A stretch of 64,000 bases of DNA, taken from contig JAJYNP010000084.1 in NCBI GenBank assembly GCA_021786265.1, positions 1-64,000 of the forward strand, read 5' to 3'. The notes below the pieces were generated by a model. That model searched no databases and was not told where the DNA came from. It worked only from the letters and a program-made list of their open reading frames with translations. The DNA is from Chloroflexota bacterium. Lineage in GTDB: Bacteria > Chloroflexota > Limnocylindria > Limnocylindrales > CSP1-4. Of this stretch, positions 23,382 to 64,000 are shown piece by piece. Numbering within the stretch: the first letter of the stretch is position 1; every line of letters starts with the position of its first letter. The translations under genes and the position numbers were made by a program.

Positions 23382-24647
23382 ATGCGCAAGGTCATCCTCG
23401 CCTACTCCGGCGGTCTCGACACCTCGGTCGCCGTCGCCTGGCTCCGGGAGACGATGGACGCCGACGTCGTCACCCTCACCGTCGACGTCGGCGGCGGCTC
23501 GCTCCGGGAGGGCGTGCAGCGCCGTGCCATCAGCGCCGGCGCGTCCCGGGCGTACGTGCTCGACGCCCGCGAGCGGTTCGTGGTCGACTACTGCTTCCCC
23601 TCGATGCAGGCGAACGCGCTCTACCAGGGCGTCTATCCGCTGGCCACCGCCCTGGCACGGCCGCTGATCGCCCAGCTCCTGGTCGAGGTCGCCCAGCGGG
23701 AGGGCGCCGACGCGGTCGCCCACGGCTGCACCGGCAAGGGGAACGACCAGGTCCGCTTCGACGTGGCCGTCCACGCCCTCGATCCATCCCTCGAGGTGAT
23801 CGCTCCGATGCGGATCGGCATGGGGCTCTCGCGCGACCAGGAGATCGAGTACGCGCAGGCCCGGGGGATCGAGGTCCCGATCACGAAGGCGTCGCCCTAC
23901 TCGATCGATCAGAACATCTGGGGACGCTCGATCGAGACGGGCGTCCTGGAGGACCCCTGGACGGCGCCGCCGGCCGACGTCTACGCCTGGACCGTCGACC
24001 CGGGGAAGGCGCCGGCGGTTCCGGCCGAGGTCACCATCGGCTTCGAGGGCGGCATCCCGGTGAGCCTGGATGGCGTTCGGCTGTCGCCGGTCGAGCTGGT
24101 CGACCAGCTGGGCACGCTGGCGGGGGCGCACGGGGTCGGCCGGATCGACCACGTCGAGGATCGCCTGATCGGGATCAAGAGCCGCGAGATCTACGAATCG
24201 CCCGCCGCCGTCGCCCTGTTCGCCGCCCACCACGCGCTCGAGGGGCTCACGCTGTCGAAGGAGCAGCTGCGCTTCAACCGGCTGGTGAGCGACGAGCTGG
24301 CGCAGGCCACCTACGACGGGCTCTGGTTCAACGCGCTCCACCGCGACCTGCGCGACTACGTGCGGTCCTCCCAGCGGGTCGTGACCGGCGAGGTCCGGCT
24401 GCGGCTCGACCACGGGTCCCTCGCGGTCGTCGGCCGGCGCAGCGACCTGTCGCTGTACGACCGGGCGCTCGCCACCTACGAGGCGGATGACGCGTTCGAC
24501 CACGCGAGCGCCGTCGGCTTCATCAAGATCTTCGGGCTTCCGCTCCGGACCGAGGCGGCGCGCCAGGGCAGCGCCTGGGCCTGGACCCAGCCGCTGGCGG
24601 ACAAGCTGCCCGCGAGCGTGGTCTCGGCCGAGGGTGCCCGCCCGTAG
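23382..24647 (+). CDS. argG: Argininosuccinate synthase
   Basis: ATP-dependent condensation of citrulline and aspartate. MRKVILAYSGGLDTSVAVAW carries the PP-loop SGGLDTS. GCTGKGNDQVRF, then SIDQNIWGRSIE and GFEGGIPVSLDGV are diagnostic. The 421 aa match the family. ATG 23382 is preceded by AAGGAG. A 106-bp gap separates it from argR, so it may have its own promoter as well. Confidence 0.96.
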   Translation: MRKVILAYSGGLDTSVAVAWLRETMDADVVTLTVDVGGGSLREGVQRRAISAGASRAYVLDARERFVVDYCFPSMQANALYQGVYPLATALARPLIAQLLVEVAQREGADAVAHGCTGKGNDQVRFDVAVHALDPSLEVIAPMRIGMGLSRDQEIEYAQARGIEVPITKASPYSIDQNIWGRSIETGVLEDPWTAPPADVYAWTVDPGKAPAVPAEVTIGFEGGIPVSLDGVRLSPVELVDQLGTLAGAHGVGRIDHVEDRLIGIKSREIYESPAAVALFAAHHALEGLTLSKEQLRFNRLVSDELAQATYDGLWFNALHRDLRDYVRSSQRVVTGEVRLRLDHGSLAVVGRRSDLSLYDRALATYEADDAFDHASAVGFIKIFGLPLRTEAARQGSAWAWTQPLADKLPASVVSAEGARP

Positions 24648-50345: not shown

Positions 50346-50801
50346 GTGAGCAGCGCCGCCTTTCTGCTCGGCCCGCTGACCCGTTCCGGGCTCCGCGTCA
50401 CGGAACCCCGCCGGGTCGTCGCCGAGCTCATCGCGACGCGGTCGGGGCACTTCACCGCTGCGGACCTCGCCGCCGACGCCGGCCAGCGACAGGTCGCGAT
50501 CGGGCGAGCGACCATCTTCCGGACGCTCGACGTCTTCGTACGCCTGGGCGGCGTGGAGCGGATCGACCTCCCGACTGGCGATCACGCCTACGTCCACTGC
50601 GAGCCTGCCCACCATCACCACGTCGTCTGTTCGGCCTGCGGGCGCACCGATGAGGTGGACGGCTGCGACCTGCAGGCGGTGGTGCGCGAGATCGCGGAAC
50701 GCACGGGCTACCGCGTGGACGGACACCGGCTCGAGCTGTACGGGATCTGCCCCGACTGCCAGGCGCGCGCGTCGACGGGACCGCGAGGAGCAGCGGCATG
50801 A
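50346..50801 (+). CDS. Fur-family metal regulator, probably Zur-like
   Basis: A 151-residue Fur-family protein. The winged helix shows RVTEPRRVVAELIATRSGHF and IGRATIFRTLDVFVRLGGV. The His-rich metal site is HCEPAHHHHVVCSACGRTDE, with structural zinc cysteines CSAC and CPDC. It is followed, with a four-base overlap, by a ZnuA/TroA-type binding protein, so zinc (or manganese) sensing is likely. GTG 50346 begins eight bases after its palindromic operator. Confidence 0.87.
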   Translation: MSSAAFLLGPLTRSGLRVTEPRRVVAELIATRSGHFTAADLAADAGQRQVAIGRATIFRTLDVFVRLGGVERIDLPTGDHAYVHCEPAHHHHVVCSACGRTDEVDGCDLQAVVREIAERTGYRVDGHRLELYGICPDCQARASTGPRGAAA

Positions 50802-51757
50802 CCAGGATTGGGCGCGTCCACCGGCTCGCGGCGGTCCTGCTGCTGGCCGGCACGCTGACACTCGCTGCGTGCACGGGGTCCGGCGCCTCGACCGGCGGCC
50901 CGGCGGGAGGAAGCGCAGGCGGATCGGGCGGATCGGGCGCATCGGGCGGCCGGATCGTCGTCGTGACGTCCACCACCGTCTTCGCGGATCTGGTCGGGCA
51001 GGTGGGCGGGAGCCACGTCGACGCCGTCAGCCTCATCCCGAACGGTGGCGATGTCCACACGTTCGCACCTCGCCCCCTCGACGTGGAACGAATCTCCGCG
51101 GCGCGGCTGATCGTGATGAACGGCCTCGGGCTGGACGACTGGATGACCAGGCTGATCTCCGACGCCGGTGCCACGGCACCCGTGGTCCGTCTCGCCGAGG
51201 ACCTGCCGGGTGCCACCTACGTGCTCGGCGAGAACGGCACGCCGAACCCGCACCTGTGGCTCGACGTCGCCAACGCCGAGCGGTACGTGTCTCGCATCGC
51301 CGAGCGGCTCGCGCAGGTGGACCCGGGGCACACAGCCGACTACGCCGCCGGCGCCGGCGCGTACACGCACCGCCTGGAGGCGCTGGACGCGTGGATCCGC
51401 ACGCGCATCGCGACCATCCCGACCGGCGACCGCCGGCTGGTCTCCTTCCACGACGCGTTCCCCTACTTCGCACGGGCGTACGGCCTGGAGATCGTGGGCA
51501 CCGTGGTGGCGGCGCCCGGCCAGGAGCCGGGGGCCGGACAGGTCATCGCGCTCGTCAATGCGATCCGGGCCGCCGGAGTGAAGGCGGTGTTCGCCGAGGC
51601 GCAGTTCAACCCCGCGATCGCCGAGGCAATCGCGCAGGAGTCGGGGGCCCGGGTGGTGACGGACCTGTACAACGACACGCTGGGGAAAGCCCCCGCGGAC
51701 ACCTACGAGGGCATGATGCGCTGGGACGTGGAGCGGATCGTGGGGGCGCTCTCGTGA
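50798..51757 (+). CDS. Metal ABC transporter substrate-binding lipoprotein (ZnuA/TroA type)
   Basis: A 319-residue cluster A-I binding protein for Zn or Mn. The lipobox is LTLAAC; then a Gly/Ser linker. Ligand histidines lie in GGDVHTFAPRPLDV, NPHLWLDVANAE and VSFHDAFPYFARAYGLE. No His-rich loop is present, so Zn versus Mn cannot be settled. ATG 50798 overlaps the regulator stop, so sensor and importer are one operon. Confidence 0.88.
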   Translation: MTRIGRVHRLAAVLLLAGTLTLAACTGSGASTGGPAGGSAGGSGGSGASGGRIVVVTSTTVFADLVGQVGGSHVDAVSLIPNGGDVHTFAPRPLDVERISAARLIVMNGLGLDDWMTRLISDAGATAPVVRLAEDLPGATYVLGENGTPNPHLWLDVANAERYVSRIAERLAQVDPGHTADYAAGAGAYTHRLEALDAWIRTRIATIPTGDRRLVSFHDAFPYFARAYGLEIVGTVVAAPGQEPGAGQVIALVNAIRAAGVKAVFAEAQFNPAIAEAIAQESGARVVTDLYNDTLGKAPADTYEGMMRWDVERIVGALS

Positions 51758-51773
51758 CGGTGGAGGAGCTGTC

Positions 51774-52655
51774 GTGACGGCCACCACGGCGCCCCCCGGC
51801 GCCATCCACGAGCACGACGGCGGTGCCGGCACGGCCCACGCCCGAGCGCATTCCGACGTGTGGCTCTCGGACGTGTCGGCGGGCTACGGCGACCGGGTCG
51901 CGCTCGAGCACGTGACCCTGGCGGTCGAGGCCGGCTCCCTGCTGGCGGTCGTGGGGCCCAACGGCGCCGGCAAGAGCACCCTGCTGAAGGTCGTGGCCGG
52001 GCTTCTCGCCCCGTGGTCCGGGCGCGTGGAGGTGCTCGGGTCGCACCCCGGGCGCGAGGCGCGGCGGGTCGCCTACGTCCCGCAGGCCGAGCTGGTGGAC
52101 TGGGCATTCCCGGTGACCGTCGGCGACGTCGTGATGATGGGCCGGTACCCGCGGCTGGGGCCGGTGCGGCGCCCGGGCGCAGACGACCGGCGCGCGGTCG
52201 GCGAGGCGCTGCGGCAGGTCGGCATGGAGGAGCACGGCGGGACGCAGATCGGGGCGCTCTCGGGCGGGCAGCGGCGGCGCGTCTTCCTCGCCCGCGCACT
52301 CGCCGCGGATCCCGCGCTGTTCCTGCTCGACGAGCCGGTGACAGGGATCGACGCGACGACGCAGGAAGACCTCATGGACATCCTCGAGGCGCAGACCCGG
52401 CGCGGCCGGACCGTCGTGGCGACCACGCACGACCTGGCCTGCGCGGCGCAGCGCTTCCACCGCGTGGCGGCGGTCAACCGGACGCTCGTCGCCCAGGGAC
52501 CCTCGTCGCTCGTGCTCGACCCCGACGTGCTCGCGCAAACCTACGGCGGTCACCTGCTGGTGCTGGGCGGCCAGACCGTGCTCCTCGACGACGCGCACCA
52601 CCACGATCAGGCGGCACCCGGCGAGCAGCACCACCACGTGGAGGACGAGCGCTGA
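51774..52655 (+). CDS. Metal ABC transporter ATP-binding protein with His-rich ends
   Basis: A 293-residue ATPase of the Zn/Mn importer. It has Walker A GPNGAGKST, signature LSGGQRRRVFLARAL, Walker B LFLLDEPVTGID and switch His in TTHDLACA. Unusual His-rich stretches at the start (HEHDGGAGTAHARAH) and end (DDAHHHDQAAPGEQHHH) may bind zinc and favour a zinc role for the system. The GTG at 51774 follows the binding protein by 16 bp. Confidence 0.88.
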   Translation: MTATTAPPGAIHEHDGGAGTAHARAHSDVWLSDVSAGYGDRVALEHVTLAVEAGSLLAVVGPNGAGKSTLLKVVAGLLAPWSGRVEVLGSHPGREARRVAYVPQAELVDWAFPVTVGDVVMMGRYPRLGPVRRPGADDRRAVGEALRQVGMEEHGGTQIGALSGGQRRRVFLARALAADPALFLLDEPVTGIDATTQEDLMDILEAQTRRGRTVVATTHDLACAAQRFHRVAAVNRTLVAQGPSSLVLDPDVLAQTYGGHLLVLGGQTVLLDDAHHHDQAAPGEQHHHVEDER

Positions 52656-52656
52656 G

Positions 52657-53523
52657 ATGGACCTCGCCCTGCTGCACGAGCTGCTGATCGCCCCGCTCGC
52701 CCACCCCGTGTTCATCCGCGCCCTGGTGGCCGGCATGCTGGTCGGCACCGTCTGCGCGGTGGTCGGGACCTACGTGGTGCTCAAGGGGCTGGCGTTCATC
52801 GGCGATGCCGTGAGTCATGCGGCGTTTCCCGGGGTCGTGATCGCGTTCATGCTGAACGGCTCGTTCTACGTGGGTGCCGGGATCGCGGCGATCGGGACCG
52901 CGCTCGCGATCGGGTTCGTGAGCCGGCGGACGCGGATCCGCATGGACACCGCGGTCGGCGTGCTGTTCGCGGGCACGTTCGCCCTGGGCATCTTCCTGTA
53001 CAGCACCATCCAGGGCTACGTCGCGGACCTCTTCGGGTTCCTCTTCGGCGACGTGCTGGCAATCTCGACGGCGGACCTGGTCGGGCTGGTGGTGCTGGGG
53101 GGCCTGGTCCTCGCGATCGTCGGGCTGCTGTGGAAGGAGCTCCTCTACGCGACGTTCGACCCGCTCGGCGCCGGCGCATCCGGTCTGCCGGTGGGCACGC
53201 TGGAGTATCTCTTCCTCGCGCTCGTGGCAATGACGATCGTGGTGAGCCTGCAGTCGGTGGGAATCATCCTGGTGGTCGCGATGCTCGTGACGCCGGCCGC
53301 TACCGCACAGCTGCTGGTGGTGCGCTTCGCCTCGATGATGCGGGTTGCGATTGGCGTGGGCATCGGCGCTGCGGTGGTTGGCCTGTACGTGAGCTACTGG
53401 GCCAACGCCGCGAGCGGCGCGACGATCGTGCTGGTCGACACGGCCGCGTTCCTCGCGGCGGCCCTGCTCGGCCCGCGCTCCGGCCTGCGTCGGCGCCGTG
53501 CCCGAGAGGCCCAGGCCGCGTGA
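52657..53523 (+). CDS. Metal ABC transporter permease (ZnuB/TroC type)
   Basis: A 288-residue permease with about eight or nine helices. Typical segments are GTVCAVVGTYVVLKGLAFIG followed by DAVSHAAFPGVV, DLFGFLFGDVLAIS and VGIILVVAMLVTPAATAQLL. ATG 52657 is one base after the ATPase stop. It completes the regulator-binding protein-ATPase-permease operon. Confidence 0.9.
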   Translation: MDLALLHELLIAPLAHPVFIRALVAGMLVGTVCAVVGTYVVLKGLAFIGDAVSHAAFPGVVIAFMLNGSFYVGAGIAAIGTALAIGFVSRRTRIRMDTAVGVLFAGTFALGIFLYSTIQGYVADLFGFLFGDVLAISTADLVGLVVLGGLVLAIVGLLWKELLYATFDPLGAGASGLPVGTLEYLFLALVAMTIVVSLQSVGIILVVAMLVTPAATAQLLVVRFASMMRVAIGVGIGAAVVGLYVSYWANAASGATIVLVDTAAFLAAALLGPRSGLRRRRAREAQAA

Positions 53524-53947: not shown

Positions 53948-54727
53948 GTGACAGCGACGTACGTGAAGGAGTGGCTCGGGTTGCTCGCCGAGGGGCGGCA
54001 GACCATCACTGCCGCCGAACTCGTGCAGAAGCTCGACGTCTCGCCCGAGGCGGCGGAGATGGCCATCCAGCGGGCCCAGCAGGCCGGCTGGCTGTTCAGT
54101 CCCGTACGAGGTCTTTACGTGGTCGTGCCCCCCGAGTACCGTTCGTGGGGAGTGATCCCCGGCGAGCGGTTCATCGACGCCGCGATGCGGCACCTGCACG
54201 TCGGCTACTACGTCGGCTACCTGAGCGCCGCCGCCCACCACGGTGCCTCCCACCAGGCCGCGCAGGTGTTCCAGGTCGTCGTCGACCACCGCCTGCGGGA
54301 TCGGGAGATCGGCGGCCTGCGGCTTCGCTACTACTACAGCACGCGGGTCAGCCGGAGCGCCGCCACGACCGTGCGCGGCGAGCACGGCCGCTGGCGGGTC
54401 TCCACGCCTGAGGCGACCCTGCTCGACCTTCTCGAGCACCCGGAGCGCGGCGGCGGAATCGGCAACGTCATGACGGTCGCCCGGTCGCTCCCGCTCGACG
54501 CAGGAGATCTCGCCGACGCGGCGGCCGATCGCGGGCCAACCGCGGCACGGCGGGCGGGATGGGTCATCGCGCGCGTTCGGTCGGACGTCGATACGGCGCG
54601 CCTGGCGAAGCTTGCGAAGTCCGGCGCCGGCGCGCCGAGCCCTCTCGACGCGCGCGGCCCTGGACAGGGGCCCGTCGACCGGCGGTGGTGGATCCGCGAG
54701 AACGCGGGCGCGGAGGCGGATCGGTGA
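53948..54727 (+). CDS. abiEi: AbiEi-type antitoxin/transcriptional regulator
   Basis: A 259-residue protein of the AbiEi family, the DNA-binding antitoxin of type IV AbiE systems. The N-terminal winged helix (ITAAELVQKLDVSPEAAEMA) is followed by GWLFSPVRGLYVVVPPEYRS and HLHVGYYVGYLSAAAHHGAS, both typical, and TPEATLLDLLEHP. GTG 53948 has GGAG nine bases upstream. Its stop overlaps the toxin start (GTGA). It should repress its own operon. Confidence 0.87.
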   Translation: MTATYVKEWLGLLAEGRQTITAAELVQKLDVSPEAAEMAIQRAQQAGWLFSPVRGLYVVVPPEYRSWGVIPGERFIDAAMRHLHVGYYVGYLSAAAHHGASHQAAQVFQVVVDHRLRDREIGGLRLRYYYSTRVSRSAATTVRGEHGRWRVSTPEATLLDLLEHPERGGGIGNVMTVARSLPLDAGDLADAAADRGPTAARRAGWVIARVRSDVDTARLAKLAKSGAGAPSPLDARGPGQGPVDRRWWIRENAGAEADR

Positions 54728-55689
54728 TACCGGTCGAGGCCATCACGGCCTGGCGGGCGTGTAAGCCGTGGCGCGACGATCGGCAAGTCGCGCAGGACCT
54801 CCTCCTGTCGGCCCTCGCCATCGAGATCGCGTCCGACCCGCTGACCGGTCCGTCGCTTGTGTGGCGCGGCGGCACCTGCCTGCACCAGCTCCATCTCGCG
54901 GCGCCGGCACGCTACAGCGAGGATCTCGACTATGTCCTGCTCGCGGGCACGGCCCGCTACCGCGACCTGGACGCGGCGTTCGCCCGGATCGCGGGGCGGC
55001 TCGACGTCTCCCTCCGCGGCGATCCGGTCCATGAGCCCACGCGCTACAGGGCGTTCGTGCGTGCCGCCGTGGCCGGCCTCGCACCGGTTGAGCTCGAAGT
55101 TGAGATCAACAGCGCGGACGCGGCGCCGGCCCTCGATCTGGTGGCTCCGCGCCTCGCTGTGGACGTGCCGGCGTGGTACGAGGGCGAGGCGGCGGTCACG
55201 ACCTACCAGGCGCCGGAGCTGGCGGGGACGAAGTTCCGGGCGCTCTCGCAGCGCCGCAAGGGGCGCGACCTGTGGGACCTCGACCTCGCCCGCAGCGAGC
55301 TCCGGATCGCCGACGGCGAGCTCGCCGTGGCCGCCGCGCACTACCTGCGCCACGAGCGGATCTCGCCGACGCAGTTCCGCGCGCGGCTCGCCAGCCACGT
55401 CACGACGAGCGAGTTCCTCACGGATCTCGATCCGCTCCTGGTGGCGGGCCTCGGCAGCTACGACGCGGCCGAGGTGGCCCGGCGCGTGATCGTCTGGAGC
55501 GACGCGTGGCTGGACCCCCTGCTCCCGACGCACGAGCAGCGCCGGTCACGGACGGAGGCGAGCGACGGGCTCGTGCGCTGCCCGGAGTATGCGGCCCACG
55601 ACGGGTCGCTGACGCGATGCGACCAGCTGGTCGCCCCAGGCGCCGCGTGTCCGTCCCACCCCGACTTGGCCGCGGTCGCGGCCTGGTAA
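54724..55689 (+). CDS. abiEii: AbiEii-type nucleotidyltransferase toxin
   Basis: A 321-residue nucleotidyltransferase-fold toxin that halts growth, for example during phage infection. The motifs are visible in order: WRGGTCLHQLHLAAPARYSE with EDLDYVLL, the catalytic Asp pair; ELEVEIN; and GTKFRALSQRRKGRDLWDLD. A Cys-containing tail (VRCPEYAAHDGSLTRCDQLV) is unusual and might bind zinc. GTG 54724 overlaps the AbiEi stop, the normal arrangement of the pair. Confidence 0.87.
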   Translation: MIPVEAITAWRACKPWRDDRQVAQDLLLSALAIEIASDPLTGPSLVWRGGTCLHQLHLAAPARYSEDLDYVLLAGTARYRDLDAAFARIAGRLDVSLRGDPVHEPTRYRAFVRAAVAGLAPVELEVEINSADAAPALDLVAPRLAVDVPAWYEGEAAVTTYQAPELAGTKFRALSQRRKGRDLWDLDLARSELRIADGELAVAAAHYLRHERISPTQFRARLASHVTTSEFLTDLDPLLVAGLGSYDAAEVARRVIVWSDAWLDPLLPTHEQRRSRTEASDGLVRCPEYAAHDGSLTRCDQLVAPGAACPSHPDLAAVAAW

Positions 55690-58005: not shown

Positions 58006-58635
58006 TTAGTCCCCGTGCGCTGATGGCGGCCGGTCCTCGTATTCGGCGCGAAGTTGGAGACGGCGCGCGGCGAGATCGGTCATTCGGCTCTCGAGGGCGG
58101 CGCGATCCGAGACGGGGTCGGAGGTCCGTCCCTCGATGTATCGGGCCTGTGCCTCCAACGCCGCTGCATAGTCTTCGGCCAACCGCCGCCAGGCATCAGT
58201 TGGCGCGTGCAGGTCGTGAATCCTCGCCTCGAGCAGGGCCAACTCCTGTAGCGCCGTAGCACCCCACCTCGCCCGAGCCTCCTGGTCGCCATCCGAGGGA
58301 TAACTTGCCGTAAGTGCGTAGAAGCGCGCCAACCGAGCGTGCAGGTCGCGATCGAACCGCCATTCCGCGCGTCGCCGCAGCAGTGGTACGCGACGAGCAA
58401 CGAATAGGGGCACACCGATCAACTCGACGGCGAAGTACAGAACGAGCAGGAGCCAGCTGCCGTCGGCCAGCGACGGTCGCCAATGCCAGGAGATGCCGCG
58501 TTCCAGCGGGAGAGCGATCAGCGCCAGTAGAAGCGCGATCGACAAGACGAGATCAACCCAGCTACGTTGCTTCCTGGCCGCGGCGAGCCCGAACACGGCC
58601 GCGACGGCAACTTCGATAACCGAGAGAACAGGCAC
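58006..58635 (-). CDS. Rhs-associated membrane protein with PTDxW motif, candidate immunity protein
   Basis: A 209-residue protein: two or three membrane segments (about 5-20, 27-44 and 58-80) then a charged helical cytoplasmic part. Residues 144-160 read APTDAWRRLAEDYAAAL, matching APTSDWQALAADYADRM and PPDEQWAKTAELMAAYL in neighbours. GTG 58635 begins 18 bp after the next upstream gene. Position downstream of an Rhs tip and membrane topology suggest immunity to a membrane-acting toxin; no known immunity family is recognised. Confidence 0.65.
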   Translation of the reverse strand: MPVLSVIEVAVAAVFGLAAARKQRSWVDLVLSIALLLALIALPLERGISWHWRPSLADGSWLLLVLYFAVELIGVPLFVARRVPLLRRRAEWRFDRDLHARLARFYALTASYPSDGDQEARARWGATALQELALLEARIHDLHAPTDAWRRLAEDYAAALEAQARYIEGRTSDPVSDRAALESRMTDLAARRLQLRAEYEDRPPSAHGD

Positions 58636-58653
58636 GCCGTCCTCGGCCTCGGT

Positions 58654-59268
58654 TCAGGAACCCAGGTCATGCCGGGTTGATCCGCTCGAGACGCCGAGGG
58701 CGGCGTCCCAAGCGTATGCCAGTTGCTCGGCCAGGTTGTTGATCTCCGCGTCGGAAGGAAGGCGGTTTCGCTCGGCGCCTGGGTCGCCAGCCGCCGCCCT
58801 CGTCCTCAGGGCCTCAAGGTAGGCCGCCATCAGTTCGGCTGTCTTCGCCCACTGCTCATCGGGCGGCGCCAGTTCCGCCAGGCGATGGAGAACGGCGTCG
58901 CATGTGTCCCGGGTGTCCGCGCGTGCCAACCGCGCCTCCTCGTCCCGAGCGCCGTCAGCTGCTCGCAGCCATCGCGCATGCACACGGCGGACCGACTGCA
59001 TCGACGATCGGAGCTTGCCGTCGTAGGTTGCCTCCGCGGCCGTGAGTCCAGCGAGCACGGGCGCGTATCGAATCATCCCTACCAAGTAGGCGACGACCAC
59101 CAGGCTCTTGAGACCAGCGGTCGCGGGTGGTGTCGGCAGGAGGTTCGCGGCGAGCAGGGTCGCTCCCAAGATTGCCAGAAACGCGACCGCACGCCTGGTG
59201 CGTAGGAATGGCGTCCACAGGACGTACACCGATCCAACGATGATGACGGCGAGGTCAACGAGGATCAC
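58654..59268 (-). CDS. Rhs-associated membrane protein, cognate candidate immunity of the orphan tip
   Basis: A 204-residue protein with three hydrophobic segments (about 3-20, 26-44 and 53-73) and a helical cytoplasmic part. The shared motif is PPDEQWAKTAELMAAYLEAL at residues 135-154. GTG 59268 overlaps the stop of the orphan Rhs tip (GTGA), the tight toxin-immunity coupling expected of a polymorphic toxin cassette. It thus probably protects against the orphan tip product. Function is inferred only from position and family likeness. Confidence 0.68.
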   Translation of the reverse strand: MILVDLAVIIVGSVYVLWTPFLRTRRAVAFLAILGATLLAANLLPTPPATAGLKSLVVVAYLVGMIRYAPVLAGLTAAEATYDGKLRSSMQSVRRVHARWLRAADGARDEEARLARADTRDTCDAVLHRLAELAPPDEQWAKTAELMAAYLEALRTRAAAGDPGAERNRLPSDAEINNLAEQLAYAWDAALGVSSGSTRHDLGS

Positions 59269-60051
59269 TTCTGGTTGTGACCGATTGCAGGTCGCGGAAC
59301 TGGGATGGGCGTGGCAGGCGGCACGGGCGGCGGCCCTGGCTCAGGGTGCGGCGCATTCGCCTGGGTGATGAACCAGTAGGTTATGGTGCCGGCCGCAGTG
59401 ATGCAGATGAGCAAAGCTCCCGTTGGAGTGCATTTGCCTCGCGATGCAGGAGGTAGCGGCGGCCCGACATTCACCAACGGTGGCTCCTGCAGCGTGCCGT
59501 TGGGCTGGAGGGGCCACTGGCGCAAGTAGTTCTGGGCAGCCTGTTGCGACTGGATGGCAGCGTACCCAACGAGTGCGCTGACCCCCAGGCAGCCAATCGC
59601 CACCGCCACGTCGACCGGCCCTCCCTCGACGAGAGCAGCAATCAGCGCGAGGCACAGGGGATTGTCCTTGCCGCTCGGGTCGACCTGGCTCGTCGGGTCA
59701 TCGCCGACGTACGCGTAGCTCGAGACGTAGGGACTCGTGACGGATGCCGTCGCTGGATCGACCGCCAGGAACCGCCCGGTGGTCGGGTCATACTGGCGGG
59801 CCCGCAGGTCGTACAGCCCGGTGGGGCCGTCCTGGTACTGCCCGGTGAACATGAAGGGGTTGACCGGCGCCTGGGAGGTCGACCCGGAGGCGCGGACCAG
59901 GCCGTAGGGCTGGTACTCGGCCCACCAGAGCGGGGTGCCCGAGGCGCTCGTGATGTCGCTGACCGAGCCCAGCCCGTCGTGGTGGTACCAGTAGGGGCCC
60001 TTGTTGGCGGTGGTCTGGTTCAAGAGATCGAGCCCGTACACGTAGCGGCGG
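59265..60051 (-). pseudogene. Displaced orphan Rhs C-terminal tip (no YD-repeat body)
   Basis: A fragment encoding the end of an Rhs core and an alternative C-terminus. It has GPYWYHHDGLGSVSDITSAS, GLYDLRARQYDPTTGRFLAV and YVGDDPTSQVDPSGKDN, then a tip of about 135 residues. The first 50 of these match the intact Rhs downstream of DPSG; the last 85 (from RQWPLQPNGTLQEPP, with CTPTGALLICITAAGTITYW, ending GHNQK) are unique. Homology starts abruptly at 60051 with no ribosome site; the first in-frame GTG is 60041. Such tips are usually silent until recombined onto a full rhs gene. Confidence 0.82.
59523..60051 (-). repeat. Rhs core/tip direct repeat, copy A
   Basis: About 529 bp nearly identical to 62165-62696 in the intact rhs gene (a few per cent mismatches over most of it, more in the last 60 bp). 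It covers the core end, DPSG and the first part of the tip. Two copies in the same orientation can recombine and swap tips, deleting 2.6 kb. Confidence 0.85.
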
Positions 60052-60083
60052 CGCCTCCGCAGCCTCGTCAGTACCCTCGGTCG

Positions 60084-60801
60084 TCATCGGGCGTACCTGC
60101 GCCGCAGCTCATCTCGTCGCGCCAACAGTAGCCGACCTGTCTCCTCGAACTCAGCGTATCGGTCGTGGCCACCCTCAACTGCATGCACCATCTCATCCAT
60201 TCGATCGGCGTAGTCGGCCGCCAGCGCCTGCCAGTCGCTCGTTGGTGCACGGCGCTTCCGAAGCGAGGCTGACCAAGCGAGTCCCCGTTCGACGAAACGC
60301 TGCCGCGAGCGTTCGCCAGCAGCGCTGTCTCGGTAGGCCGAGTAATCAGCCACCATCCGATTGAGCTCGCCAATCTGGTCATACAGCCACCGGTCGTACT
60401 GCCGCTGCTCATCAGGTAGCACCGTCGACGACCAGCGGGCTGCGCGGTCAATGACGTCGAAGAACGTGCGCATTCCAGAAGCGCCAGACGGAGCCACCGC
60501 CGAATTCGAATGGGACGTACCAGAGCAGCGCGATAAGATCGAGCCAAACCGCGAGAGCTGGCTGGAGGGCCAGGGCGACGAGAGCCAGCACCAGAGGGGG
60601 CACGCTTATCGAGGCGAAGGCGGCACCATCGCGCGGGAGCAACGGTCCGAGACACACGGTGTCCACGACAGCCAGCGTCGGCAAGGTCAGCCATGGCACC
60701 AACCACCCGGGTGCCACGGCAATGAGGACCGCCAAGACTGCGAACAGTCCAAGCAGCACGATGGGTCCAAGGCGACGGAGTACGGGCGTACGACCCGTCA
60801 T
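60084..60801 (-). pseudogene. Rhs-associated membrane protein, probably one frameshifted gene
   Basis: Two overlapping frames make up one family-like protein. From ATG 60801 come three or four hydrophobic segments (GPIVLLGLFAVLAVLIAVAP, WLTLPTLAVVDTVCLG, LVLALVALALQPALAVWLDL), stopping at 60448. The second frame, open from GTG 60497 without a ribosome site, gives the soluble helical part with RTFFDVIDRAARWSSTVLPD and APTSDWQALAADYADRMDEM, ending at 60084. A one-base shift near 60460-60495 would rejoin them into about 235 residues, like its neighbours. Two separate proteins are less likely. Confidence 0.65.
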
Positions 60802-60898
60802 GGAGAACTATCAGCCATGCTTCACCCCGAGCGTCCTGAGGGCGTCGTCGCGGGTGCCACGTGCTCGCTCACACTTGGGCCCCAGGTTGGTCTGTGAG

Positions 60899-60933
60899 CC
60901 GCGGGATCGTACGCGACGCGCCAGATGTGGCCG
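60899..60933 (-). repeat. Fossil YD-repeat fragment of an rhs gene
   Basis: In the gap between two membrane-protein genes, 35 bp match 63763-63797 of the intact rhs gene at 33 of 35 positions. On the minus strand it encodes GHIWRVAYDPA, as in GHIWRVTYDPA. Weaker likeness runs about 20 bp further towards 60880. It marks another Rhs insertion or recombination event. Confidence 0.75.
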
Positions 60934-60998
60934 GAGCTATAACCAGATGTTGCCATGAGCCCGCCCATGGTGCGCCGCGCTCTGGGCGCCTCGGACGC

Positions 60999-61868
60999 TC
61001 AATTGACCGATTCGACCCCCTCCCAAGTTGCTCGAAGACGGGCGCTCCGATCCCTATAGGCCGCGATCTCGGCCTCGGTCGCCGCACCACAGTGGTCCCG
61101 CAGCTCAATCTGGAGCAGCGTCACCAGATCATCCCGGATCCGAGCCCACGCGGCAGTCGGCGGATGGCTTCTCCGGATGTCCTCGATTGCCACACGAGCG
61201 GCCCGCAGGAACGGTTCGCGCGCGTCGCTCGCGACGGCACTGCGCGACGCCTTGAGGGCGTCACGGACCCACGCGAGCAGGTCACGGAGTTCGAGATCGT
61301 ACGACCTCTCACGCCCCGCGCGCATCGGCCACTTGAGGGTGTTCCGCTCCCGCACCCACGTCCAGAAGCGGCGCGCCTCGGACTCAGCCCGCCCGGCCTG
61401 TTCTTTCGTTGCTAGGTCCGTCTCGTCCGACGTCTCCCAGGCGAGCCAAAGGGTCAGCGAGCGTGCCTCCAGGTCACGAACACGAGACCATTCGTCTGTC
61501 GGTGGCTCCAGCGACTGAAGTGCAGCAGTCGCATCGGCGTACGCCCGCTTTAGCTTCTCGCGATCGGACGTGCTTGTTACCCTCACCCGTTCCCGAATCC
61601 GGCGGAACCGCTCGTCGAAGTCGACTTCGGGGCGGGGCAGCGAACTCAGGCCGAGCCACTGGGGCCAGAGCAGCCCAGCAGCCCAGCAGCCGGCCACGGC
61701 GAGCGCCGCGATGTAGCCGGTCGGATCGGGAACCGCACGAGCGACCGCGAGCGTGATCGACAGCACGATCGCCAGACAGACGAACCGCAGGTTGCGAGTG
61801 GCGGGCCAGACAAGCGTCGCCCACCACCCGAAGGCCACCAGTAATGCGACACCGAGCCCAGCAGGCAC
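60999..61868 (-). CDS. Rhs-associated membrane protein, cognate candidate immunity of the intact Rhs
   Basis: A 289-residue protein. Three hydrophobic segments (about 4-22, 28-46 and 51-74) precede a long charged helical region. Two copies of the shared motif occur, PPTDEWSRVRD at 122-132 and PPTAAWARIRD at 236-246, so the soluble part may be a duplication of the unit found once in the neighbours. GTG 61868 is two bases after the Rhs stop. This tight spacing is what is expected of an immunity gene for the Rhs tip. No recognised family. Confidence 0.7.
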   Translation of the reverse strand: MPAGLGVALLVAFGWWATLVWPATRNLRFVCLAIVLSITLAVARAVPDPTGYIAALAVAGCWAAGLLWPQWLGLSSLPRPEVDFDERFRRIRERVRVTSTSDREKLKRAYADATAALQSLEPPTDEWSRVRDLEARSLTLWLAWETSDETDLATKEQAGRAESEARRFWTWVRERNTLKWPMRAGRERSYDLELRDLLAWVRDALKASRSAVASDAREPFLRAARVAIEDIRRSHPPTAAWARIRDDLVTLLQIELRDHCGAATEAEIAAYRDRSARLRATWEGVESVN

Positions 61869-61870
61869 GT

Positions 61871-64000
61871 CTACCTCGGCTTTCGCACCACTCCGTCCCC
61901 GCTGCCGCTATCACCGTACAGAACGGGCGTTGCTGCGCCTTCGTTCGAGAGCGCCGAATTGACGATCGCACTGACCAGTGCGAGGAAGGCCGCGCACTGC
62001 TTTACCGACGAGCAGAGCCTGAACGGGCTGTTTGGATCCCCCGTGTGCGGGTTGGTCTGGCTTTGTTGGATGTTCGGGGGGTTGAACTGCTGCTCGCGCA
62101 GCATACTTCTGACCCAAGCGCCAGGATCCGGTCCTGCAGTGGGCATGGGCGTGGTGGTCTTGCTCAAGTAGTTTTGAGCGGCGTGTTGTGATTGGAGAGC
62201 AGCATACTCGAGGAGGAGTGCGCTGACCCCCAGGCAGCCAATTGCCACCGCCACGTCGACCGGCCCTCCCTCGACGAGAGCAGCAATCAGCGCGAGGCAC
62301 AGGGGATTGTCCTTGCCGCTCGGGTCCACCGCGTTCGTCGGGTCATCGCCCACGTACGCGTAGCTCGAGCCGTAGGGACTCGTGGTTGCTGGTGCGGCCG
62401 GATCCACCGTCAGGAACCGCCCGGTGGTCGGGTCATACTGGCGGGCCCGCAGGTAGTACAGCCCGGTGGGGCCGTCCTGGTACTGCCCGGTGAACCCGAA
62501 GGGGTTGACCGGCGCCTGGGAGGTGGAGCCGGACTCTCGCAGCAGGCCGTAGGGCTGGTACTCCGCCCACCAGAGCGGGGTGCCCGAGGCGCTGGTGATG
62601 TCGCTCACCGAGCCCAGGCCGTCCTGGTGATACCAGTAGGGGCCCTTGTTCGCGGTGGTCTGGTTCAAGAGATCGAGCCCGTAGACGTAGCGGCGGATGA
62701 GCTTGCCATTGCCGTCGCGTTCGGCGACCACGGTGGGCAGGGCGAAGACACGGTCGACCACGAACTGCGTCGTGTTGGATGCCTGGCTCCCCGTCGCCGC
62801 GCGCAGGCGGATCCCGTCGCCGCTGTAGGCGTAGGTCTGGGTGGTGCTCCCCACGCTGGCCGAGGCCAGCTCGTTGGCCAGGTTGTAGGCGTAGGTCGAC
62901 GAGCCCGCGGAGCGCTGGTTGCCGTTCGCGTCGTAGGTGTAGGGCACCGCGGCGGACCCGGGCGACGTGACGCTGGTCAGCCGGTCGGCCGCGTCGTAGG
63001 CGTAGCTGGCGGTGCCCAGGTAGTTGGTCTGGGTCAGGCGGTTGCCCACCGCGTCGTAGGTCCAGTGGGTGAAGGTGTCGCCGGGGGGCGGGGGGTTGTT
63101 CTCCGGCGGGCGGGTGATGATCGCCCCGCCCGCGGGCGCCGCGGCAGCGGCAAGCGTGCAGCCCGCGTAGCACACGCCGGTGAGGCGATCCGCGGCGTCG
63201 TAGGTGTAGACCATGGTGTCCCGCGAGGTGACCATCGCGGTGCGGTTGCCCGCGGGGTCGAGCGTGTAGCTGAAGCTCGAGAGGAGCCCCGCGCTGCTCG
63301 CGGTGGAGACGCTGGTCAGCCGTCCCGCTGCGTCGTACGTGTCGGCGGTGGTGAAGCCGTCCGGCGTGGTGACCGACACCGGGTCACTCGCCGGGTCGTA
63401 GGCGTACGTGCTGGTGGTGCCGCCCGACGTGGCGCTCGCCAGGCGCCCGTCGGCGTCGTAGGTGTAGCTGGTGAGGGTGCCATCGGGATAGGTGCGGGAG
63501 AGGAGGTTGCCGGCCGGGTCGAAGGTGTAGGTGAAGACGTTGGCGCCGCGGGTGTCCGCGGTCAGGCGGTTCAGCGTGTCGTAGGTGAAGGTCTCGGTGC
63601 CTGCGCCATCGGTCATCGAGGTGCGGTTGCCGTCCGCGTCGTAGGCGTAGCTGACCGGCGCCGTCGAGCCGTTCGCGTACGTGACCCCGGTCAGGCGGTT
63701 GAGGGCATCGTAGGCGTAGGTCGTGGTGGCGCCGTTGGCGTCGATCACGCTGGTCTGGTTGCCCGCGGGATCGTAGGTGACGCGCCAGATGTGGCCGTCC
63801 GGATCGGTCGTGGTGATCAGCCGGTCGGCCAGATCGTAGGCATACGTGGTCGTGTGGCCGTTCGCATCGGTCCGGCTGGCCAGGTCGTTGGTCGCGTCAT
63901 ACGTGTAGGCCGTGACGTCGTGCAGCGGATCGGTCACCGACACGAGGTGGTTCGCCGCGTCGTAGCCGTAGGCGGTGGTGTGCCCGTTCGGGTCGGTCAC
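61871..64000 (-). CDS. Rhs/YD-repeat polymorphic toxin, 3' part (gene continues beyond the window)
   Basis: At least 709 residues; the start lies past position 64000. About 500 residues of YD repeats are visible (for example TTTYAYDALNRLTGVTYANG and RTYPDGTLTSYTYDADGRLA). They form the shell that encloses the toxin. The core closes with GLYYLRARQYDPTTGRFLTV and YAYVGDDPTNAVDPSG. The tip after DPSG has about 148 residues: a hydrophobic segment (NPLCLALIAALVEGGPVDVA, then VAIGCLGVSALLLEYAAL) shared with the orphan tip, then a unique 95 residues with SPFRLCSSVKQCAAFLALVS and VVRKPR at the end. No known nuclease or other toxin motif is seen. A delivery route is not encoded here. Confidence 0.9.
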   Translation of the reverse strand: MTDPNGHTTAYGYDAANHLVSVTDPLHDVTAYTYDATNDLASRTDANGHTTTYAYDLADRLITTTDPDGHIWRVTYDPAGNQTSVIDANGATTTYAYDALNRLTGVTYANGSTAPVSYAYDADGNRTSMTDGAGTETFTYDTLNRLTADTRGANVFTYTFDPAGNLLSRTYPDGTLTSYTYDADGRLASATSGGTTSTYAYDPASDPVSVTTPDGFTTADTYDAAGRLTSVSTASSAGLLSSFSYTLDPAGNRTAMVTSRDTMVYTYDAADRLTGVCYAGCTLAAAAAPAGGAIITRPPENNPPPPGDTFTHWTYDAVGNRLTQTNYLGTASYAYDAADRLTSVTSPGSAAVPYTYDANGNQRSAGSSTYAYNLANELASASVGSTTQTYAYSGDGIRLRAATGSQASNTTQFVVDRVFALPTVVAERDGNGKLIRRYVYGLDLLNQTTANKGPYWYHQDGLGSVSDITSASGTPLWWAEYQPYGLLRESGSTSQAPVNPFGFTGQYQDGPTGLYYLRARQYDPTTGRFLTVDPAAPATTSPYGSSYAYVGDDPTNAVDPSGKDNPLCLALIAALVEGGPVDVAVAIGCLGVSALLLEYAALQSQHAAQNYLSKTTTPMPTAGPDPGAWVRSMLREQQFNPPNIQQSQTNPHTGDPNSPFRLCSSVKQCAAFLALVSAIVNSALSNEGAATPVLYGDSGSGDGVVRKPR
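62165..62696 (-). repeat. Rhs core/tip direct repeat, copy B
   Basis: This is the counterpart of 59523-60051 inside the intact rhs gene. It is three bases (one codon) longer because of LLLEYAA versus LVGYAA. Likeness stops at CGTAGCGGCGG on the core side and at CAAGTAGTT on the tip side. Confidence 0.85.

Follow-up and report, generated by a model that had tools for sequence, protein, structure and literature searches.

The window analysed here is a 64,000-nt stretch of contig JAJYNP010000084.1 (assembly GCA_021786265.1, Chloroflexota bacterium), and its right end carries, on the minus strand, an rhs locus with a displaced rhs end and a bank of four related membrane-protein genes, IM1 to IM4. 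Read along that strand, the order is the rhs 3′ part with its C-terminal tip (tip1), IM1, a 35-bp rhs scar, a split IM2, an orphan rhs fragment ending in a second tip (tip2), IM3 and IM4:

61871 to 64000, minus strand: main rhs gene, 3′ part; 709 aa in the window, 5′ end past the window edge; RHS_repeat (2.5e-64) and Rhs_assc_core (1.6e-19)
62315 to 62560, minus strand: Rhs-associated core of the main gene; protein residues 481–562, with the DPSG boundary at its end
61874 to 62314, minus strand: tip1; 147 aa, with a polar, proline-containing linker between two hydrophobic segments
60999 to 61868, minus strand: IM1; 289 aa, putative cognate immunity protein to tip1
60899 to 60933, minus strand: rhs scar; 35 bp, 94% identical to 63763–63797
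60084 to 60801, minus strand: IM2, frameshifted; overlapping frames at 60448–60801 (117 aa) and 60084–60497 (137 aa)
59265 to 60041, minus strand: orphan rhs fragment; 258 aa; Rhs_assc_core (1.2e-19), core at 59670–59915
59268 to 59669, minus strand: tip2; 134 aa, the C-terminal end of the orphan rhs fragment
59517 to 60051, minus strand: duplicated stretch, a copy of main-gene positions 62159–62696; 90% identity over 538 alignment columns
58654 to 59268, minus strand: IM3; 204 aa, three membrane segments, putative immunity protein to tip2
58006 to 58635, minus strand: IM4; 209 aa, three membrane-length helices and a four-helix bundle

At the sequence level, the rhs identity of the main gene and of the orphan fragment is secure. 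The main gene has the hallmarks of an Rhs polymorphic toxin (YD/RHS repeats, a core ending in DPxG and a variable tip with a small gene directly behind it), and the orphan fragment has those of an orphan rhs-CT, with homology to the main rhs end, a different distal tip, its own adjacent gene and no upstream rhs part. IM1 starts two bases past the main rhs stop, and the IM3 start overlaps the orphan rhs stop by four bases. These coordinates bear out the layout given in the original prediction: an rhs end, a gene two bases on, a frameshifted relative, an orphan tip and two more membrane-protein genes. The 35-bp scar is likely the remnant of an older displaced tip, and the bank reads as would be expected from repeated tip displacement, with the current pair first, then the scar and a decayed immunity gene, then the orphan tip with two intact putative immunity genes. 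The accompanying claim, that a tip was displaced and immunity-like genes were retained, is well supported by layout and duplication and matches the arrangement of Salmonella orphan rhs-CT modules (PMC3967940; here and below, statements on published systems hold for the available portions of the cited papers).

The different C-termini that had been predicted for the two tips apply to the distal part; the first ~50 residues after DPSG, including a first hydrophobic segment (VAVAIGCLGVSAL...), are common to both. A second hydrophobic segment lies further along each tip (LCSSVKQCAAFLALVSAIV in tip1, TGALLICITAAGTITYWFI in tip2). Kyte–Doolittle hydropathy placed the tip1 segments at tip residues 21 (1.97) and 100 (1.77), and the tail after the hydrophobic segment has basic residues at its end. 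Neither tip had a Pfam or NCBIfam match above cut-off outside the Rhs core. When the tip1 region was searched against 5.8 billion proteins, over a length range (0.55–1.75 times the 709-aa query) that excluded full-length Rhs, none of 1497 candidates reached E ≤ 0.001. An AlphaFold model of tip2, built from three sequences, contained three helices only and was of low confidence (predicted local distance difference test 55.7, predicted template modelling score 0.27). The orphan fragment drew 12 phage records, all below 60% identity and none spanning 80% of the query; among the five matches listed, three stop at query residues 124–126 and two reach 148 and 152.

Over 155 codons, the main and orphan rhs copies differ by 0.17 synonymous (dS) and 0.049 nonsynonymous (dN) substitutions per site (dN/dS 0.28), and at least one of the two has therefore been under constraint in the shared part ever since they duplicated. 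This bears on whether the locus is a decaying relic, a recombination hot spot whose tips and immunity genes no longer function. The frameshift in IM2, the rhs scar and an orphan without an upstream gene would all suit such decay, but the constraint on the shared part argues against it, as do the open frames of IM1, IM3 and IM4, the last of which has a relative of equal length at 64%. We regard a relic as very improbable.

IM1 to IM4 belong to one family, with membrane helices towards the N terminus, three of them in each of IM3 and IM4, and a helical domain with an invariant P...W. IM1 has two to three hydrophobic segments at its N terminus and then two P..W helical units, and the IM2 pieces, taken separately, each match an intact 229-aa relative in genome G052. 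The suggestion that this family is undescribed held up: the proteins had no Pfam match above cut-off (best E 0.047, 14.8 bits against a cut-off of 24.3), NCBIfam gave no match at all, and the best PADLOC hit, a database without a curated cut-off, was a weak one of IM3 to Csx1 (E 0.0074, 13.4 bits) that we take as chance. Fold searches with the IM4 model returned generic helical bundles only, the IM profile reached at best E 0.058 among solved structures, and IM4 had no match among plasmids. A protein search with IM4 alone found two proteins, and one with IM alignment A3, in which the 7998 candidates with most shared words were scored, retrieved seven at E ≤ 0.01, including the window's own IM3 (P0004).

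Matches to the IM alignment occurred in 12 of 401 genomes. Three of the 12 are the seeds, Chloroflexota genomes other than the window's in which IM members stand directly behind Rhs tips. The match in G144 is one gene upstream of a large YD-repeat gene, that in G141 lies ~1.8 kb behind an Rhs tip and that in G113 is at a contig end; weak A3 matches (E 2.6e-4 to 9e-4) fell in G214, G075, G298 and G131. A further set of 46 relatives yielded no convincing extra member (best E 0.0025). Some relatives depart in form or setting: those at L114 3032–3844 and L115 7925–8779 have, by alignment, added C-terminal hydrophobic stretches, and the latter is one gene upstream of a 2211-aa YD-repeat frame. At L121 6093–8049 (G141), an open membrane gene behind an Rhs tip is followed by decayed frames; partly by eye, these resemble a hydrophobic tip and what is left of an IM-family gene, with PPDAGW.

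The wider setting was surveyed among relatives of the host. The 421-aa window protein at 23382–24647, which from its N-terminal motif we take to be argininosuccinate synthase, has matches at 96% identity in G123 and G044, 78% in G003 and 73% in G001, and the closest Rhs cores in the genome collection come from three Chloroflexi loci (64–69%) in metagenome-assembled genomes (MAGs); by these identities, the host is a relative of the Chloroflexota MAGs G001 and G003. Among G001 and 100 relatives, 27 genomes carry an Rhs-associated core, at 60 places. All 60 were processed; four with tips running off the stretch were left out and seven weak or partial cores were kept, and one place kept, G036:C88, has two stops within its core match. 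The next gene was scored as a membrane gene if an open reading frame (ORF) of at least 70 aa, starting −60 to +150 nt from the tip, had at least two hydropathy-predicted membrane segments. Such an ORF lay behind 30 of 56 closed clade tips versus 5 of 41 in Proteobacteria (nine genomes; 43 of 57 control places used, one of them not covered by the stretch and one open) and behind 24 of the 163 non-Rhs genes taken from the window and from stretches of its relatives. For tips of at most 170 residues, a membrane ORF came next in 22/31 clade cases versus 2/17 controls, and the tip had a membrane segment of its own in 19/31 versus 2/17. Scoring the longest ORF only gave 23/56 and 5/41.

Replication in the 46 further relatives, 23 of them with a core, used 58 of 68 places (10 partial or below cut-off were left out), four of which were unusable, and a membrane ORF came next for 24 of the remaining 54 tips. 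Short tips in this set had a membrane ORF next in 9/15 cases and their own membrane segment in 11/15. The set was partly non-blind (G113, G131, G141 and G144 had been met before, and the Rhs locus at G141:C27 already read); minus that locus, the count is 23/53. Kinship between tips also tends to extend to their membrane genes: where two tips were homologous (E ≤ 1e-3) and each had a membrane ORF, the neighbours were homologous too in 6 of 8 pairs, versus 4 of 427 other pairs, counting ORFs of at least 60 aa starting up to 250 nt away, with three of the eight pairs derived from one trio of loci and no outside homologue for the window tips. Places in the same genome are non-independent, so Fisher values for the next-gene and pair counts are too optimistic. 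The pattern of tip and membrane gene is an enrichment, not a rule.

Tandem organization recurs in the clade, with at least two cores within 5 kb on 10 of 48 core-bearing contig strands. The clearest serial array, L003 1–4429, packs three rhs ends into a contig of 6.3 kb, and a different small membrane protein follows each of them within 16 nt. One Rhs tip was unlike the others examined: at L056 (G085:C122) it has 63 residues, 12 cysteines and two membrane segments, and 149 nt separate it from the start of the next membrane ORF. In the control alphaproteobacterial MAG G410, C20 61495–82877 holds six Rhs cores in ~21 kb on both strands, and the four tips scored there have no membrane neighbour of at least two segments. 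Scoring the next gene by highest GC content at third codon positions was dropped, as it left no neighbour for 28/41 control and 14/56 clade tips (counts 24/56 versus 1/41). A glycine-zipper mechanism was not supported: neither window tip contains (G/A/S)xxxGxxxG or GxxxGxxx(G/S/T), and tips of 40–170 residues were not enriched in zippers (clade 15/30, shuffle mean 13.6; controls 8/16, 7.5).

Membrane-located immunity might also serve tips that form no channel. Lipid II or a membrane enzyme, for instance, could be the target, at the surface of the membrane or in the cell wall, and the hydrophobic segments would aid entry only. A membrane ORF indeed follows 9 of 25 clade tips that have no membrane segment, and the first block, common to tip1 and tip2, might serve for entry and leave the activity to the variable part. 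A LysM-like start, recognized by eye, is also present in four Rhs tips (G131:C122, G129:C358, G124:C105 and G009:C9:12483). That variable rest is, however, mostly one hydrophobic segment and a polar linker, with little space for a catalytic domain, and no enzyme family matched; we consider such non-channel tips unlikely here. Stretches of this putative LysM-like kind (FWYRVKKGDTLL... and similar) open the Rhs tips of L206, L213, L202 and L078, at L206 ahead of an ORF with four membrane segments, and LysM-like Rhs tips could form a cell-wall-targeting class.

The account we favour, and think probable, is that of an Rhs polymorphic-toxin locus whose tips act on the cytoplasmic membrane of target cells and whose polytopic immunity proteins are banked. 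Gene layout, duplication, IM family, hydrophobic character and counts are read directly from the DNA; toxicity, pore formation and immunity we infer. The earlier suggestion that the tips act on membranes gains indirect support from the hydrophobic tips, the membrane partners and the clade-wide counts, with the tips as putative toxins. By analogy with the Rhs effector Tse5 and its immunity protein Tsi5, and with ionophore toxins of contact-dependent inhibition (CDI), the Rhs shell would carry the tip into a neighbouring cell, where the tip would be freed at DPSG, its hydrophobic segments would enter the membrane and the membrane potential would be dissipated. An IM protein would sit in the producer's own membrane by three helices, with its helical bundle and the conserved P..W probably facing the cytoplasm, and would bind and block the matching tip. 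An incoming recombined tip would push the old tip and its immunity gene downstream; the displaced tip could come back by recombination across the duplicated 0.5 kb, and older immunity genes would still protect against kin using old tips.

Several observations weigh against this account. No membrane neighbour was found for 26/56 tips in the first set and 30/54 in the replication, and the IM members of G052 and G039:C108 lie on contigs without Rhs (14.8 and 8.1 kb); the IM family is not strictly tied to Rhs. The original prediction had held that membrane genes conserved elsewhere without Rhs neighbours would tell against it, and this was found in part: at least these two members are Rhs-free, and others are Rhs-adjacent. 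Orphan immunity genes can explain the Rhs-free members, with a precedent for orphan membrane immunity in the exiCD genes of Staphylococcus aureus genomes that lack the toxin (PMC12744356), and a broader function could explain them too. The Rhs-free members would also suit hydrophobic tips that anchor the Rhs surface protein of the producer itself or signal its assembly, with the membrane genes as display partners, and so would the hydrophobic segment and basic tail end of tip1. An anchor should be conserved, whereas the tips differ from one relative to the next and, when displaced, move as cassettes that include membrane genes of their own; display also gives no reason for a bank of four related genes, one of them decayed. 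We judge it quite improbable.

A broader proposal can be put forward tentatively, at somewhat less than even confidence. This Chloroflexota clade may have a membrane-specialised system in which Rhs shells launch many unrelated short membrane-inserting tips, each with a polytopic immunity protein. The tips would be in two parts, an insertion block common to them and a distal helix, open to exchange, that determines immunity specificity. Displaced pairs, kept one behind the other, would make up a swap bank, and no immunity family of this system would have been described before the IM family.

Elsewhere in the window, an AbiEii-type nucleotidyltransferase toxin gene (54559–55689; Pfam AbiEii 1.1e-22) lies ~2.3 kb past the end of the Rhs bank, and the frame just upstream of it looks by eye like an AbiEi antitoxin. 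A zinc uptake cluster at 50798–53523 comprises ZnuA (Pfam 5.9e-76) followed by ATP-binding-cassette ATPase-like and permease-like frames, with a frame upstream that by eye is Fur/Zur-like.

Each of the following has a precedent: Rhs loci, orphan tips, a pore-forming tip on an Rhs protein, and membrane immunity genes in strings. Within the scope of these searches, novelty lies in the tips themselves, in the IM family, in a tip divided into shared and exchangeable parts, and in membrane-type pairs being enriched in a single Chloroflexota clade. In this lineage a short hydrophobic Rhs tip often comes with a polytopic membrane protein, and conservation across genomes is seen for several such pairs. 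If these are true toxins and antidotes, many small independent pairs would act in one membrane, and the sequence rules of insertion and neutralisation would become testable; tip1 and tip2 amount to a natural swap experiment because one block is common and the other different. The locus also points to contact-dependent competition in Chloroflexota, a phylum for which literature searches on Rhs toxins turned up few papers.

Among known systems, the orphan rhs-CT/rhsI module of Salmonella Typhimurium LT2 is alike in layout: a main rhs and its immunity gene come first, and a displaced rhs fragment follows that has an immunity gene to itself (PMC3967940). Main and orphan are linked there by a 522-bp region at 95%, against 538 alignment columns at 90% in the window, and there is evidence in Salmonella that a displaced tip returned to use via recombination with the main gene (PMC3967940). 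The Salmonella modules belong to another phylum, and the available text describes no bank of polytopic membrane immunity genes (PMC3967940). The CDI ionophore toxins and their CdiI proteins resemble the proposed system in polymorphic tips that dissipate membrane potential, entry and ionophore modules, and highly diverged cognate immunity (PMC11630599). They differ in the CdiA carrier and in a putative glycine zipper, the only sequence element common to their five-helix ionophores (PMC11630599), which the window tips lack.

The S. aureus pairs TspA/TsaI and EsxX/ExiCD likewise combine membrane-depolarising toxins with membrane immunity, including strings of non-identical tsaI genes (PMC9484751, PMC12744356); the likeness is one of description, and TspA and EsxX are substrates of the type VII secretion system rather than Rhs proteins. 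The 2012 polymorphic-toxin survey of Zhang et al. found all but a few immunity proteins to be cytoplasmic (PMC3482391). Its two-transmembrane families Imm17 and Imm-CdiI are alike in being membrane immunity, and its Tox-WTIP, a toxin linked to Rhs, is small and highly hydrophobic and is predicted to have two membrane helices (PMC3482391). The W-TIP domain was so far known only from Proteobacteria (PMC3482391), and its Wx[ST]IP motif is, by eye, in neither window tip.

Tse5/Tsi5 of Pseudomonas aeruginosa, a pore-forming Rhs effector and its immunity protein, offers an Rhs shell, a hydrophobic C-terminal toxin without predicted enzyme activity and integral-membrane immunity (PMC9637101, PMC10684867). 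No homology to the Tse5 tip was found: the best stretch is in the YD-repeat shell (window protein residues 2–164), and among the matches listed none has its best stretch past residue 589 (tip start 563). Two transmembrane regions are reported for Tsi5 (PMC9637101), against three plus a helical bundle in IM3 and IM4. Delivery of Tse5 is by the type VI secretion system (PMC9637101), whereas the Rhs proteins of four of five relatives in the window's clade begin with a signal-peptide-like stretch and, by eye, look Sec-exported.

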